From positions 1-47,111 of the forward strand of contig JACPVQ010000192.1 in NCBI GenBank assembly GCA_016191645.1: DNA of 47,111 bases, in the 5' to 3' direction. Source of the stretch: Candidatus Solibacter usitatus (GTDB lineage: Bacteria > Acidobacteriota > Terriglobia > Bryobacterales > Bryobacteraceae). Below, piece by piece: positions 1,366 to 25,385 of the stretch. The first letter of the stretch is position 1, and each line of letters begins with the position of its first letter. The translations under genes and the position numbers were made by a program. Under the pieces are notes generated by a model. The model saw only the letters and a program-made list of their open reading frames with translations. It searched no databases and was not told the DNA's origin.

Positions 1366-3960
1366 ATGCGTGTACCGAGGATCGCCTTACTGTCCCTGGC
1401 CACAGCCAGCACACTTCTTGGGGCTGGACGGACTGTCTCCTTTGAAAAGGAGATCAAACCCATTCTAGAGGCTCGCTGCGTGAAGTGTCACGGAGCCTCG
1501 CTGCAATTGGGAAAGCTTGATCTGCGCTCGGCTCAGTCTGCACTGAAAGGCGGCGAGAAGGGCCCGGCGTACACGGCAGGCAACCCCGCGCAGAGCATTC
1601 TCTATAAGCGCGTTGCAGGCGTTGAAAAGCCCGCCATGCCGATGGACGGGACTCTGACCCCCGCCGAAGTGGAGGCCCTGAAGCTGTGGATTGAGCAGGG
1701 CGCGAAGTGGGAGAGCGAGATTGGAAAGGTGGCAACGAAGAATCCTCTGCAGGAGTTGGAGGAGTCGAAACTGCCTCCTGGCGCACGCGAATGGTGGTCG
1801 TTCAAGAAGCCGGTTCGCGTTGCCGTTCCGCGCGTTTCCGACACCCGCTGGAGCAAAAGTCCGATCGATGCGTTTCTCAAGAAAGAGTGGGACGCAAAGG
1901 GATTGCAGCCCGCGCCTCCGGCCGACAAGCGAACCCTGGTGCGGCGCGCCTACCTCGATTTGCTGGGCCTTCCGCCTACTCCCGCCGAAACGCGCGAGTT
2001 CGTCAACGATCAACGCCCCGACGCGTGGTCTCAGCTGATCGACAAGCTGCTTGCCTCGCCGCATTATGGCGAACGCTGGGGCCGCCACTGGCTGGATGTC
2101 GCGCGCTATGCGGATTCCAACGGCTACGAGCACGATTTCGACCGGCCCAACGCGTGGCGCTATCGCGATTACGTCATCCGTTCCTTCAACCGCGATACGC
2201 CATTCGACCGTTTCCTGTTAGAGCAGCTCGCCGGCGATGAAGTGGAGAACGTCACCGACGATACTCTCATCGCCACGGGTTTCCTGCGCAACTACGCCAA
2301 GGTCGGCTTCCGCGAAAAAGACAATCCGCAGTTCCGCTTCGACTATCTCGACGACATGATCGCGACGCTGGGCCGCGGCGTGATGGGTATGACCGTGCAT
2401 TGCGCCCGCTGCCACAACCACAAGTTCGATCCCATTCTGCAGCGCGATTACTACCGCTTGCAGGCGTCGCTTTACAGCTACATCGAGGTTGAGCATCCGC
2501 TGGTCCCCAAAGATCAGGCGACCGCGTTCCGGCAGAAAAACGAAGAACTGGACGCGAAGACCGGGAAGCTGAAAAATCGCATCGCCGAAATCGAGGACCC
2601 GTACAAACTTGTCCTGGTGAAACCGAAGTACAAGCGGTTCCCCAAAAACGTGCAGGAGGCGATTGAAACCCCCGAGGAACTGCGCACTCCGGGGCAGGTC
2701 TTGCTGGCCAACCAGATTATTCGTACCACGCGCGTCTCCAGCGAAGAAGTGGCCAGGCACCTGAAGCCGCAGGAGTTGGAAGAGGTCCGAAAACTGCGGG
2801 CGGAGATCTCCGCTTTGGAGGAGCAGCGGCCTGCTCCCATCCCGGTGGCGATGGGAATCACCGACGGCGATTACCGTTTCGTTCCCGACGGCGCAGGCGA
2901 CGAGCCCGCTCCCGGCAAGGGCGTGAAGCGGGAATTGACGGAAGGCTCCTACCTCCACAAAGGCCCCGGACCTTACGTTGCGCCACCATCTTTCTTCCTC
3001 TACGGCGGCGATATGTACAGCCCTGGTGGGCTGATGAAGCCCGGCTTCGTCAGCGTGCTCTTCGAGAACGAGCCGCCGGTCGAGCGGCCTCCCGCGGACA
3101 GGCGCACTTCCGGCCGGCGTCGTGCTTTAGCCGAGTGGCTCGCCTCGGCGGATAACCCGACAGTGTCGCGTGTGATGGCGAATCGCATCTGGCATCATCA
3201 TTTTGGGCGCGGCATCTTCGCAACGCTCGACAACGTGGGAAAGACCGGGGAAAGGCCGACGCATCCTGAGTTGCTCGATTGGCTCGCCGTGGATTTCCGC
3301 GAAGGCGGCTGGAGCATCAAGCGGATGCACCGCCTCATCATGAACAGCCAGGCCTACCAGATGGCGTCGTCCTATACCAGCGAAGGCAATCTGAGCAAGG
3401 ATATCGACAACACGTGGCTGTGGCGTTTCCGCCAGCAGCGCTTGGACGCCGAAGTGGTGCGCGATTCGATTCTGGCTACGGCGGGATCGCTCAACACATT
3501 GATGGAAGGACCCGCGGTGTTCCCCGTGCTTCCTCGCGAGACGCTGCTCTCCATGCGCAACGGAATATGGCGCAAGCAGAACGACGGCCCGGAGACCTGG
3601 CGGCGCAGCGTTTATGTGTATCGCAAGCGCGGCCTGCCGTTCCCGCTGTTCGAAGTTTTCGATCTGCCGGATCAGACCATCACTTGCGGACGTCGAAACG
3701 TCTCAACCGTTGCGACGCAGGCGCTTACGCTGATGAACAACGAATTTGTTCTCGACCATTCGAAGCGCTTCGCGCAGCGCGTGCGCGAGCTTTCTCCGCG
3801 CGACAAGAGTGAGCAGCTCGAATTAGCCTACGAACTGGCGCTGAGCCGTCCGCCCACGGCCGAAGAGCGCCGCATTGGCAAGGAATTTCTGGAGAAAAAC
3901 TCCATGGAAGATCTGACGCACGTTCTGATGAATCTGAGCGAGTTCCTGTACATAAGGTAG
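1366..3960 (+). CDS. Planctomycete-type cytochrome C with DUF1549 and DUF1553 domains
   Basis: Exported c-type cytochrome-like protein, 864 residues. Residues 1-21 look like a signal peptide. A PSCyt1 domain follows with the heme motif CVKCH (residues 38-42). DUF1549 spans roughly residues 170-380 and holds a second CxxCH (CARCHNHKFDP, near residue 350). The C-terminal third is DUF1553 (SRVMANRIWHHHFGRGI; ALTLMNNEFV near the end). A region around residues 390-500 looks charged and helical. These proteins are abundant in Planctomycetes, Verrucomicrobia and Acidobacteria and are nearly always paired with a DUF1501 protein, as here. The biochemical role is not established; a part in extracellular polymer or sugar oxidation is often suggested. 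It is followed after five bases by its DUF1501 partner. Confidence 0.9.
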   Translation: MRVPRIALLSLATASTLLGAGRTVSFEKEIKPILEARCVKCHGASLQLGKLDLRSAQSALKGGEKGPAYTAGNPAQSILYKRVAGVEKPAMPMDGTLTPAEVEALKLWIEQGAKWESEIGKVATKNPLQELEESKLPPGAREWWSFKKPVRVAVPRVSDTRWSKSPIDAFLKKEWDAKGLQPAPPADKRTLVRRAYLDLLGLPPTPAETREFVNDQRPDAWSQLIDKLLASPHYGERWGRHWLDVARYADSNGYEHDFDRPNAWRYRDYVIRSFNRDTPFDRFLLEQLAGDEVENVTDDTLIATGFLRNYAKVGFREKDNPQFRFDYLDDMIATLGRGVMGMTVHCARCHNHKFDPILQRDYYRLQASLYSYIEVEHPLVPKDQATAFRQKNEELDAKTGKLKNRIAEIEDPYKLVLVKPKYKRFPKNVQEAIETPEELRTPGQVLLANQIIRTTRVSSEEVARHLKPQELEEVRKLRAEISALEEQRPAPIPVAMGITDGDYRFVPDGAGDEPAPGKGVKRELTEGSYLHKGPGPYVAPPSFFLYGGDMYSPGGLMKPGFVSVLFENEPPVERPPADRRTSGRRRALAEWLASADNPTVSRVMANRIWHHHFGRGIFATLDNVGKTGERPTHPELLDWLAVDFREGGWSIKRMHRLIMNSQAYQMASSYTSEGNLSKDIDNTWLWRFRQQRLDAEVVRDSILATAGSLNTLMEGPAVFPVLPRETLLSMRNGIWRKQNDGPETWRRSVYVYRKRGLPFPLFEVFDLPDQTITCGRRNVSTVATQALTLMNNEFVLDHSKRFAQRVRELSPRDKSEQLELAYELALSRPPTAEERRIGKEFLEKNSMEDLTHVLMNLSEFLYIR

Positions 3961-18541: not shown

Positions 18542-18609
18542 ACAAGAGCTCTGCGCATCGAATGAGGAGAGTAGGAGAAGAGGCTACACGCGGAAAGAGT
18601 GCGACCCTT

Positions 18610-18790
18610 CTCGATAGCACTCCATCCGATTGCCTCGGATGACAGTTGCCGGGATTTAGCCCGGACACCCAACCGCTCAGGTTACGACGACCCTTGCGGT
18701 TTCGGCGGTATCTCAGCCCCTTTTTCCACGCGTCCGGCGCCTGCGGGAACATCGCACGCGGATACTATTGGCTGCCGCGCCTCTACCAAG
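18610..18790 (-). promoter_or_regulatory. Lysine riboswitch (L box) ahead of M20-asd-lysC-dapB
   Basis: Read on the minus strand, the lysine aptamer core appears in order. GGTAGAGGCGCG (18787-18776) is followed by AATAGTATCC (18769-18760, loop-E-like). GGGGCTGAGATACC then runs into CCGCCGAAACCGC (18720-18696). After these come GGTTGGGTG (18674-18666), a P4-type hairpin CCGGG-CTAAAT-CCCGG (18664-18649), a P5-type hairpin CATCCGA-GGCAA-TCGGATG (18641-18623) and GGAGTGCTATC. P1 closes with CTTGGTAG (18790-18783) against CTATCGAG (18617-18610), all eight positions pairing with two G-U. No U-run terminator follows, so control is more likely at translation or by Rho. A competing stem, GAGTGC (18622-18617) with GCACTC (18602-18597), is a candidate switch element. 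Confidence 0.9.
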
Positions 18791-18798
18791 AAAACTCT

Positions 18799-21588: not shown

Positions 21589-22110
21589 ATGCGAAATTCA
21601 ATCGGTCTGGGAGTTCTTATGGCTGCATCTTTGATGGCCGGCGACTCGATTCACGAGTTCAGCCTCAAGACAATCGATGGCGGCGAGATGCAACTGTCGT
21701 CGCTCAAGGGGAAAGTGGTGTTGCTGGTCAACACCGCAAGCCAGTGAGGGTTCACACCACAGTACTCCGGTCTGGAGTCGTTGCATAAGCAGTACAAAGA
21801 TAAGGGTTTAGTAGTGTTGGGGGTTCCCGCGAACAACTTCGGCGGACAGGAGCCCGGGACGAATGAAGAGATCAAAACCTTCTGCACCCGCAACTACAAG
21901 GTGAGCTTTCCGATGACCGCCAAAGTGTCGGTCAAGGGTGCGGACCAGACGCCGCTCTACAAGTATTTGAGCGACAAAGCAGGCGCGCCGAAGTGGAATT
22001 TCACCAAGTACTTGACCGGTAAGGACGGCAAGGTGATCAAGCGATTTGATTCGAGTGTCGCCCCGGAATCTCCGGAAGTGATCTCGGCGATTGAAGCCGC
22101 GCTGAAATAA
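21589..22110 (+). CDS. Glutathione peroxidase, probable selenoprotein (in-frame UGA at residue 53)
   Basis: Read through TGA 21745-21747 as selenocysteine, the gene encodes 173 residues with one continuous glutathione-peroxidase sequence. The TGA sits in LLVNTASQ-U-GFTPQYS, exactly the catalytic Cys/Sec position. The other catalytic residues are present: Gln87 in NNFGGQEPG, and Trp136 and Asn137 in PKWNFTKYL. Residues 1-18 may be a signal peptide, so it could act outside the cytoplasm on peroxides. A SECIS-like hairpin follows the TGA. A caller that takes TGA as a stop would report only 21781-22110. A nonsense mutation is the alternative, but the position and hairpin argue against it. It is divergent from the DUF6600 gene and convergent with the DUF1552 gene. 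Confidence 0.9.
21764..21778 (+). promoter_or_regulatory. Bacterial SECIS-like hairpin
   Basis: ACTCC-GGTCT-GGAGT forms a five-base stem with a GGUCU loop. The loop starts 22 bases after the last base of the TGA codon. The E. coli fdhF element, recognised by SelB, also has GGUCU in its apical loop at about this distance. The hairpin lies inside the coding sequence, as bacterial SECIS elements do. Confidence 0.75.
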
Positions 22111-22112
22111 AT

Positions 22113-23465
22113 CTACGCCAGAACTCCGGGCAGGCGGCCCGTGCTGTCGGCGAACCGTTCCACGGGAGTTCCAAAGGCGTCGAGCATGCTGACGTACAAA
22201 TTGGACAGCGGCGAATCGGGCGTATAGATCAGATGCTGTCCGGCATCGATTCGGCCACCCGCGCGGCCGCCCAACACTAACGGCATGTTGTGCGGATCGT
22301 GCTTGTTGCCGTCGCGAATCCCCGCGCCAATCAAAACCATGGAGCTGTCCAGGACATTCGTCTCGCCTTCCTTCATCGCGCGGAGCTTGCGCATGAGGTA
22401 GGCGTACTGCTCAATGTGCCAGCGATTGATCAGTTGATACTGGCGAAGCTTGTCGGCGTCTTTTTCGTGATGCGAAAGCGAATGGTGCGATCCCGAAACT
22501 CCGGGAACGAAAGAAAAATTCTGATTGCTCACTTCGTTGGCGAACATGAACGTCGCTACGCGGGTGGTGTCAGTCTGAAAACCGAGCGCAATCATGTCGA
22601 GCATGAGTCGCACGTGTTCGGCATAGTCTTTCGGAATGCCCTCGGGTTTGGCGGAAGCGTCGATGGAAGCCTTTGCTTTCCACGGATTCTCCCGCGGCTG
22701 CGACGATCGTTCCAGGCGCTGCTCCAAAGAACGCACCACGGAAAGATACTCTTCCATTCGTTGGCGATCCGCCGCTCCCAAACTCTGCCGCAACTGCTTG
22801 GCGTCCTCCATGACGCTGTCCAGCAGTTGCGCGTCGCGGCGGGCGGAATCGCCTTGCGGCCCGGTCGCGCGGAACAGGCGCTCAAACACCAAACGCGGAT
22901 TGATTTCGCGCGCCAGCGGCGACGTTGGTCCGCTCCATGCAATGTGCGATCCGTAGACGCGCGTATATCCGACGTTTTTGTCGACGCCCGTGCTGACCGG
23001 CGTAATTCCCAATTCCAGCGATGCGAGCGGCGTTTGTTTGCCGGAGCTTTGCGCCGCCATCTGATCCATGGAGACGCCGTTGCAGCTGACATCGACGCCC
23101 AATGTCTTCGTGATGGTGGTGCAGGTGAGGAAGCCGGAAATCTTGACGTAGTGCCCTTCGCCGCCTTTGCTCGCCTGATTCCACAGATTCGTCAGAACCA
23201 GAATCTCGCTCTTCAAATCCTCCAGCGGTTGTAGCGTGGGCGAAAGCTGAAAATCGCGGCCCGTGCCCTCAGGAGTCCACATGTCCTCGCGCACGCCGTT
23301 GGGCATGTACATCGCGGCAATGCGCACGGGCGACACGGGCTGTGTCTTGGCGGCATCGGCGCGGCGCGGCATCATCGCTTCCAGCCACGGCAGGCCCACG
23401 CCCGCGCCCGCGCCACGCAAGAGCGTCCGGCGGGAGATGGGAAACCGGGGGTTAAGGATGGTCAT
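22113..23465 (-). CDS. DUF1552 protein, Tat-exported
   Basis: 450 residues. The N terminus SRRTLLRGAGAGVGLPWLEA is a twin-arginine signal. The remainder matches DUF1552: PVRIAAMYMPNGVREDMWTP near residue 45, SSGKQTPLASLELGI near 140, GVSGSHHSLSHH near 320 and SMVLIGAGIRDGNKHDPHNMPLVLGG near 385. These proteins are relatives of DUF1501 and are almost always encoded next to a DUF1592 cytochrome, here six bases upstream on the same strand. Function is not established. Its stop lies three bases from the stop of the convergent peroxidase gene. Confidence 0.9.
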   Translation of the reverse strand: MTILNPRFPISRRTLLRGAGAGVGLPWLEAMMPRRADAAKTQPVSPVRIAAMYMPNGVREDMWTPEGTGRDFQLSPTLQPLEDLKSEILVLTNLWNQASKGGEGHYVKISGFLTCTTITKTLGVDVSCNGVSMDQMAAQSSGKQTPLASLELGITPVSTGVDKNVGYTRVYGSHIAWSGPTSPLAREINPRLVFERLFRATGPQGDSARRDAQLLDSVMEDAKQLRQSLGAADRQRMEEYLSVVRSLEQRLERSSQPRENPWKAKASIDASAKPEGIPKDYAEHVRLMLDMIALGFQTDTTRVATFMFANEVSNQNFSFVPGVSGSHHSLSHHEKDADKLRQYQLINRWHIEQYAYLMRKLRAMKEGETNVLDSSMVLIGAGIRDGNKHDPHNMPLVLGGRAGGRIDAGQHLIYTPDSPLSNLYVSMLDAFGTPVERFADSTGRLPGVLA

Positions 23466-23471
23466 GACTCT

Positions 23472-25385
23472 CTATTGATGATAATCCCGCACGGACATGT
23501 TTTGCGCGGTGCCTGTCTGATAGCGGAACGGAATGCTCAAAACGATCTCGCGGATCAGCACATGCGATGCGTAATCGTTCTGCTTCAACTTCTCCATGAT
23601 GCGATCGACGGTGCAGTACTCTTCCAGCGTCAGGCCTCGCCCCAACGCATAGCCAAGAAGCTTGCCGGTCAGGTTGCGAAACAGGAGATCTTTCCGCGCC
23701 AGCAGGACTCCCTTAAGCTCCTGTGGTCCGTTGAAGATGGTTCCGTCAGGCAATTCGCCCTTGCTGTCGATGGGCTTGCCCGCATCTTCTGTACGCCAGC
23801 GGCCGAGGACATCGTAGTTCTCCAACCCAAAGCCGAGCGGATCGATCTTGTTGTGACAACCCGCGCACACGGCATTCTGCCGGTGCAGTTCCAGCCGCTC
23901 ACGCAATGTTTGCGGCATCTGCGCATCGTGTTCTTTAAGAAGCGGAACGCTGGGCGGCGGAGGCGGAGGCGGAGTGCCTAGCACCGATTCGAGAATCCAT
24001 TTGCCGCGCAACACGGGACTGGTCCGCGTGGGAAGGCTGGATACTGCGAGCACCGCGGCCATTCCAAGCAAGCCGCCGCGATGGCTGTTCTCCGGCAATT
24101 CGATGCGCTTGGGCTGCTGCGAAATTTTTTGATCGGCGGCGATCTTGAGATCGTAATGGCGCGCCAGCCGGTTCGTGAGAATCGTAAACTTCGAATCGAT
24201 CAGATTCATCAGCGACAGGTTTTCCGCCATGATCTCCTGGAAGAAGAGGATGGGCTCGTAACGCATGGCGGATTGGATCTCCGCGTCGTAATAGGTGGGA
24301 AATAGCTGCCTGTCGGGTTTGATGTCGCGTCCGAGTTCGCGAATGTTCAGCCACTGATCGACAAAGCGGTCGGCGAATTCGTGCGCGTGGGCATCCTTCA
24401 ACATGCGCGGCACTTGCGCGATCAACGTTTCCGTTTCGTGCAGCGTCCCTTTAGACGCAAGATCGAATAGCGTCTGGTCGGGCATCGAGCCCCACAAAAA
24501 ATACGATAGACGCGAGGCCAAAGCGTAATCATCCAGCAGCCGCGGAGGAGGATTGGGATTCGGCGATTCCAGGCGGAAGAGAAAGTGCGGCGACATCAGA
24601 ACGCCTTGCAATGCGTACTGCATCGCCTGTTCGTAGGAATCGCCGCGCTTCATCGCCGTCTGGAACAGAGCCATGTACTTATCCATGTCGCCTGGGCGGG
24701 CAGGCCTTCGAAATGCCTTGGGTAAGAAAGCGTCCAGCGTTTTGCGCGCCGCTTCCTCGGGAGAAAGCGTTGCGTTGGGATCGGTGAGAAACCGCGCGCG
24801 GGAACGGGTATCGGAAAACGCATATTCCAACGCAAGCTTCGCCGCTTCCAGGTATTTTTCGGCATGAATGGGCGACAGGAACAGAGTCTCCGCCGCGTTA
24901 TCGAAACCCTCGCCGCCCGCGCCTTCGGCGGGCAATCCATGACCCGCATTGATGTGGATATTCAGCAGATCGCGAACGGTGGATCCGTATTCGCCGCGGT
25001 TCAACCTGCGCAGCGGCGCACGCCCCGGCGCAATGCCATCCGCGCAGGCGGCCTGATGCAAGGCCGTGTCTACCCACGCGACAAACTGCTCGCGCTCCTT
25101 TGCAGGCAATGCGGGCGCGCCTTTCGGCGGCATCTCGCTATCGCGAACCCGCGCCAGAACGCGGCTCCACTTCACGGGCAATTCCACGACGCTGTTCGCG
25201 GCCAGCAGAGGCGCGGCCTGAAATCCGCCCATCGGTTTCCTGCCCTGATGACAGCCGGCACAATATGTTTTGAGAACGCGCTGCGTAGCGGAGAAAGAAG
25301 TTGGTTCCTGGGCGCTCGCGCTGAACGCCAGGACGCATAGAAATGAAACAATTCGCCGCAAGCTAACATGGTATTGCAATGACAT
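23472..25385 (-). CDS. DUF1592-family cytochrome-like protein (DUF1587/1595/1592/1588/1585)
   Basis: 637 residues, secreted. A signal peptide (RRIVSFLCVLAFSASAQ) is followed by a heme motif CAGCH (residues 42-46), then the DUF1587 region (LRRLNRGEYGSTVRDLL), DUF1595/1592 (DYALASRLSYFLWGSMPDQ; FVDQWLNIREL), DUF1588 with a second CAGCH in CAGCHNKIDPLGFGLENYD, and DUF1585 at the end (LTGKLLGYALGRGLTLEEYC). Eight consecutive prolines or nearly so lie before LKEHDAQ. The ATG at 25385 overlaps the divergent lipoprotein start; a TTG at 25361 beginning LRRIVSFLCV is an alternative giving a cleaner signal peptide. Paired with DUF1552 downstream. Confidence 0.88.
   Translation of the reverse strand: MSLQYHVSLRRIVSFLCVLAFSASAQEPTSFSATQRVLKTYCAGCHQGRKPMGGFQAAPLLAANSVVELPVKWSRVLARVRDSEMPPKGAPALPAKEREQFVAWVDTALHQAACADGIAPGRAPLRRLNRGEYGSTVRDLLNIHINAGHGLPAEGAGGEGFDNAAETLFLSPIHAEKYLEAAKLALEYAFSDTRSRARFLTDPNATLSPEEAARKTLDAFLPKAFRRPARPGDMDKYMALFQTAMKRGDSYEQAMQYALQGVLMSPHFLFRLESPNPNPPPRLLDDYALASRLSYFLWGSMPDQTLFDLASKGTLHETETLIAQVPRMLKDAHAHEFADRFVDQWLNIRELGRDIKPDRQLFPTYYDAEIQSAMRYEPILFFQEIMAENLSLMNLIDSKFTILTNRLARHYDLKIAADQKISQQPKRIELPENSHRGGLLGMAAVLAVSSLPTRTSPVLRGKWILESVLGTPPPPPPPSVPLLKEHDAQMPQTLRERLELHRQNAVCAGCHNKIDPLGFGLENYDVLGRWRTEDAGKPIDSKGELPDGTIFNGPQELKGVLLARKDLLFRNLTGKLLGYALGRGLTLEEYCTVDRIMEKLKQNDYASHVLIREIVLSIPFRYQTGTAQNMSVRDYHQ

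Follow-up and report, generated by a model that had tools for sequence, protein, structure and literature searches.

The stretch of DNA analysed here (the window: 47,111 nucleotides, contig JACPVQ010000192.1 of the Candidatus Solibacter usitatus assembly GCA_016191645.1) carries a glutathione peroxidase (GPx) gene on its forward strand. As the first-pass annotation had described, the frame is open from the ATG at 21589 to the TAA at 22108-22110 apart from one internal stop, a TGA. In a Pfam profile search, the product was found to contain a GSHPx domain (PF00255; 132.4 bits, cut-off 27). There were three GSHPx matches in the assembly and this product alone exceeded the cut-off, so that the Sec form would be the sole GPx recognized at that threshold. 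The TGA lies in the segment TASQ-U-GFT, which we take to be the peroxidatic position of GPx, and the Gln, Trp and Asn residues earlier described as intact were found as Q87, W136 and N137, presumably the catalytic partners of the enzyme.

Table 1. Coordinates of the GPx gene, its features and a second candidate selenoprotein gene
Feature	Position	Strand	Basis
Predicted Sec glutathione peroxidase gene, 173 codons + TAA, Sec codon 53	21589..22110	+	translation, Pfam GSHPx
Predicted Sec-encoding TGA, codon 53, within TASQ-U-GFTPQYS	21745..21747	+	translation; six other genomes of the family have TGA there
Gln87, presumed catalytic partner	21847..21849	+	kept in 9/9 rows reaching the position, of 10 aligned
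Trp136-Asn137, presumed catalytic partners	21994..21999	+	kept in 9/9 rows reaching the position, of 10
Cys99 (FCTR), candidate resolving cysteine	21883..21885	+	FC kept in 9/9 rows reaching the position, of 10
Possible signal peptide, residues 1-19	21589..21645	+	basic start and hydrophobic run, judged by eye from the translation
Putative bacterial SECIS hairpin, stem ACUCC/GGAGU, loop GGUCU (21769-21773), 21 nt past UGA	21764..21778	+	fold, alignment and published rules
20-nt identical stretch, +13 to +32 after TGA	21760..21779	+	all seven family UGA genes, third codon positions included
Candidate redoxin-like / AhpC-TSA selenoprotein gene with RSADW-U-PYC	1644-2681 of L184, contig C172 of the same genome	-	translation, AhpC-TSA 107 bits, hairpin

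When the GPx was used as a query against 200 genomes of the same family, 198 gave a match, and among the matches listed one internal TGA was found in seven genomes, the present one included (G000; the others are G180, G009, G052, G023, G088 and G118). Codon 53 is covered by 116 of the 117 rows of aligned loci (the remaining row, L161, is the second piece of G118), and its column holds 96 TGC, 8 TGT and 12 TGA codons. The 12 TGA rows represent the seven genomes, some of them two or three times, and the 104 Cys rows comprise 97 distinct DNA sequences. The earlier placement of the TGA at the catalytic Cys/Sec position is thus borne out by the relatives. A sample of the phylum (396 genomes, 301 of which matched) yielded one further TGA case among the matches listed, G388 (locus L183), which belongs to another family; its TGA aligns with the others and is followed by an extra codon, and a hairpin with the stem ACUCC/GGAGU and the loop AGUUU lies 24 nt past the UGA. 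Plasmid records matching the GPx numbered 184, all with less than 60% identity, and the five that were listed are all named glutathione peroxidase.

A TGA in this column might be a nonsense mutation in a Cys-type GPx. To this pseudogene explanation the absence of selB and selD from the assembly, described below, lends some weight, but it is contradicted by the same TGA in seven genomes, by a SECIS that is frozen among them and by purifying selection after the TGA. Comparison of the six full-length UGA genes (15 pairs, 112-113 codons of the frame after the TGA) gave dN values of 0.16-0.38, and dS values in the same pairs ranged from 1.0 to beyond the range of the correction. Judged from these rates, the frame downstream of the TGA is under purifying selection. 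Because this selection continues past the TGA, and because the TGA recurs at this codon in six other genomes, it is not there by chance. Decay in relatives had been named in the first-pass annotation as a sign of a broken gene; of the 104 Cys rows, just one has an internal stop in the portion aligned. We therefore consider a pseudogene highly improbable. The one row with a stop (L110), a Cys-type GPx, is itself possibly decaying or an error. A misread TGC or TGT would be conceivable in a draft assembly that is 79% complete, but six other genomes have the same TGA, and the adjacent SECIS sets the UGA genes apart from the Cys genes. Since seven separate genomes share both the TGA and the SECIS, a sequencing or assembly error is very unlikely, indeed close to negligible.

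The downstream SECIS that bacterial Sec insertion had been said to need can now be placed: a short hairpin follows the TGA within a stretch that is identical in all seven UGA genes of the family (Table 1). It resembles the E. coli fdhF SECIS in its short stem, its apical loop of the GGUC type and its distance of roughly 20 nt from the UGA, and differs in that it sits in a GPx reading frame and no lower stem is shown. Published rules for bacterial SECIS elements, as given in an excerpt of PMC13188914, call for an apical loop of 3-9 nt that has a G at position one or two, a stem of 4-16 bp and a distance of 16-37 nt from the UGA, and the loop (5 nt, GGUCU), stem (5 bp) and spacing (21 nt) found here lie within these limits. 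The same excerpt, which gives no folding length, sets a minimum free energy of at most -7.5 kcal/mol; the hairpin has -7.2 kcal/mol at 39 nt, just short of this limit, and -9.1 kcal/mol at 48 nt. It is part of the minimum-energy fold in 7/7 UGA genes at 39 and 48 nt and in 3/7 at 63 nt. An Rfam scan of the hairpin gave no SECIS match, with two chance matches at E 5.6 and 7.7, and at 39 nt its stability showed no excess over dinucleotide shuffles (z +1.07). As the folding energy does not beat the shuffles, our argument rests on codon conservation and on the relatives.

In the six full-length UGA genes, residues 58-64 use one identical codon at six of seven invariant residues, against 7 of 56 elsewhere (Fisher p 1.6e-4; this block of codons was picked after inspection, but among all possible 7-codon blocks it shares first place with its neighbour). 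The same count gave 1/5 for the nearest six Cys genes and 0/5 for the next six, and when six Cys genes were drawn at random out of 26, identical codons reached at most 2/7 in 2000 draws. The core codons TCC GGT CTG GAG are absent from all 104 Cys rows. A stem of at least 6 bp (G-U allowed) with SECIS spacing and a loop G was found in 10/10 UGA rows (8 genomes, two of them represented twice) versus 7/104 Cys rows. Of 237 family genomes searched, seven contain the 33-mer with the exact TGA; an eighth match, with two mismatches, is a TGC gene, and the backwards control gave one match.

The first-pass annotation had left the Sec machinery to be supplied by the rest of the genome, and this expectation held in part. 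In the assembly (4.47 Mb in 267 contigs), we found a tRNA-Sec (78.3 bits, cut-off 47), with a UCA anticodon according to the alignment, and SelA (485.9 bits, cut-off 267.9); a genome without sel genes, another sign of a broken gene named earlier, is therefore not what we are dealing with. The tRNA-Sec cut-off may be lenient, and the match lies 31 bits above it; among 14 control genomes, five exceeded the cut-off for tRNA-Sec and two that for SelB. For selB and selD, no match exceeded the cut-off in this 79%-complete assembly (8 and 3 matches, respectively). The best selB match was rejected because it types as EF-Tu, the best selD match because it types as thiamine-phosphate kinase, and the other matches fell below the cut-offs. 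Gaps in the assembly are, we infer, the most likely reason why these two genes are missing. Over the 200 family genomes, matches above the cut-off were found for SelB in 167, for tRNA-Sec in 183 and for SelD in 170, and within the genus of the window strong SelB and strong SelD were each found in 9 of 11 genomes, judged by best E-value. All six other genomes with a UGA-GPx have SelB above the cut-off and five have a strong SelD (G009 being the exception, G180 judged by best E-value); among the matches listed, tRNA-Sec exceeds the cut-off in five of the six, the match in G088 having an E-value of 2.4e-12. Because most family genomes possess the machinery, its association with UGA-GPx across the family is uninformative. 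Many of the SelD matches listed in family genomes carry one in-frame TGA and others none, and in the former genomes SelD is probably itself a selenoprotein.

The missing selB would also suit a UGA that is read as an amino acid other than Sec, through a change of the code or a natural suppressor. Against this, two of eight other window genes examined (LysC and the M20 gene) end in UGA, the genome has both tRNA-Sec and SelA, and its second UGA gene has a similar hairpin; we rate such decoding as a very slim prospect. The earlier proposal of a true selenoprotein rather than a broken gene is well supported by the genome's tRNA-Sec and SelA, by the conservation of the SECIS at synonymous sites in seven genomes and by the Cys that relatives have in the column. 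Selenocysteine is very probably inserted at the UGA at 21745, and the apparently broken gene would then give a selenium-containing, peroxide-removing enzyme.

The second UGA gene encodes a predicted protein of 345 aa with the motif RSADW-U-PYC. It was reached through one of eight matches of a WAxxUGC model in this genome, none of which exceeded the cut-off, and no NCBIfam model scored above its cut-off with the protein. Its hairpin, with a 6-bp stem and the loop GGUCG, lies 20 nt past the UGA and belongs to the best fold when 39-48 or 66 nt are folded, but not with 54 nt. In two of the three solved relatives shown, the U falls on the first Cys of a ResA-type motif; in the third, it falls on another residue. 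Plasmid records for this protein numbered 92, none covering 80% of its length. On these features, the protein is probably a second selenoprotein of the genome, and UxxC proteins of PF00578 are listed as a selenoprotein family in the excerpt of PMC13188914.

In the mechanism that we propose for the GPx, SelB, whose presence is judged from the relatives, would bind the hairpin at 21764-21778 and supply the UGA at 21745 with Sec-tRNA(Sec). The peroxidatic Sec, partnered by Gln87, Trp136 and Asn137, would then reduce peroxides, the oxidised Sec would probably be resolved by Cys99, and thioredoxin or a periplasmic thiol partner may regenerate the enzyme. The closest of 43 solved-structure sequences is HYR1 (PDB 3cmi, 145 bits), which we take to be the yeast thioredoxin-type Cys GPx. 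The two proteins have the conserved WNF and FC segments in common, and HYR1 has Cys where the GPx described here has Sec. The resolving role that we presume for Cys99 is one known from GPx of the thioredoxin type; this role and the reductant, that is, a thioredoxin-type GPx, are the reading that we moderately favour. The putative signal peptide makes export of the enzyme possible.

The distribution of the two forms within the family was examined on a tree of 50 chosen rows, out of 114 with codons, from which codons 53 and 58-64 were excluded. Five Sec/Cys changes are needed on this tree, and starred branches force two of the five. When the long row L183 is left out (49 rows), four changes are needed, again with two forced, and a single change sufficed in 0% of 200 bootstrap trees. 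One row, L160, is less than half filled in the tree alignment, and the change counts are blind to direction, so that gain and loss look the same in them. The codons GGT CTG GAG are retained in 4 of the 104 Cys rows (L029, L065, which has the same DNA as L029, L036 and L040); L029 and L036 fall within the starred group of the present genome and L040 outside it. These data could be read to mean that, in one Acidobacteriota family, the active site of GPx changed between Sec and Cys on more than one occasion, with the SECIS letter-for-letter constant in every Sec copy found there: an ancestral Sec-GPx would have been repeatedly downgraded to Cys, and the GGTCTGGAG of a few Cys genes would be a possible remnant of the SECIS. 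We hold this scenario to be evenly poised. Transfer is a possible alternative to repeated loss of Sec; because the SECIS is identical across separated Sec groups, we prefer repeated Sec-to-Cys replacement from a Sec ancestor. If repeated downgrading did occur, the family would offer a natural experiment on why Sec is retained in some cases and abandoned in others.

Because standard gene callers split or drop UGA-containing selenoprotein genes, Sec-GPx are under-counted. The sources, as excerpted, report one Sec-GPx in a genome survey of 2006, that of Treponema denticola (PMC1794560), five Sec-GPx sequences under prokaryotic families from the Sargasso Sea (PMC1088965) and 40 from GOS (PMC2398784). 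The bacterial GPX-like selenoproteins (PF00255) have the motif UxxT (excerpt of PMC13188914), and by description rather than alignment the gene presented here is like them in its GPx domain, peroxidatic Sec, U-x-x-T (here UGFT) and SECIS downstream of the UGA. It differs in that it comes from Acidobacteriota, for which the passages on known members name no Sec-GPx, and in that a single family contains a mixture of Cys and Sec forms. For Acidobacteria, 3 selenoprotein families were given in 2006 (excerpt of PMC1794560), and deep-Sep assigned 3 selenoprotein genes to Occallatibacter riparius, with GPx not named in the passage concerned (PMC12013277). Among the literature matches listed for selenoproteins with GPx or Acidobacteria, no title names a Sec-GPx in Acidobacteriota. 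Bacterial Sec-GPx is thus already known but uncommon, and the gene adds a member; its notable aspect is the patchy Sec/Cys distribution over an unchanging SECIS. With its close Sec/Cys pairs and a short, fully conserved SECIS, the family should lend itself to tests of the advantage of Sec over Cys within a single enzyme.

Some other features of the window may be mentioned. DUF1552 and DUF1592/1588-type planctomycete cytochrome modules adjoin the GPx gene (22113-23465 and 23472-25385, both on the reverse strand), and a DUF1549/1553 gene lies farther off (1366-3960, forward strand). On the reverse strand, a lysine riboswitch (RF00168, 77.7 bits) at 18607-18793 directly precedes genes for an M20 peptidase, a semialdehyde dehydrogenase and an amino acid kinase, which share its strand and are probably a lysine-controlled biosynthesis operon.
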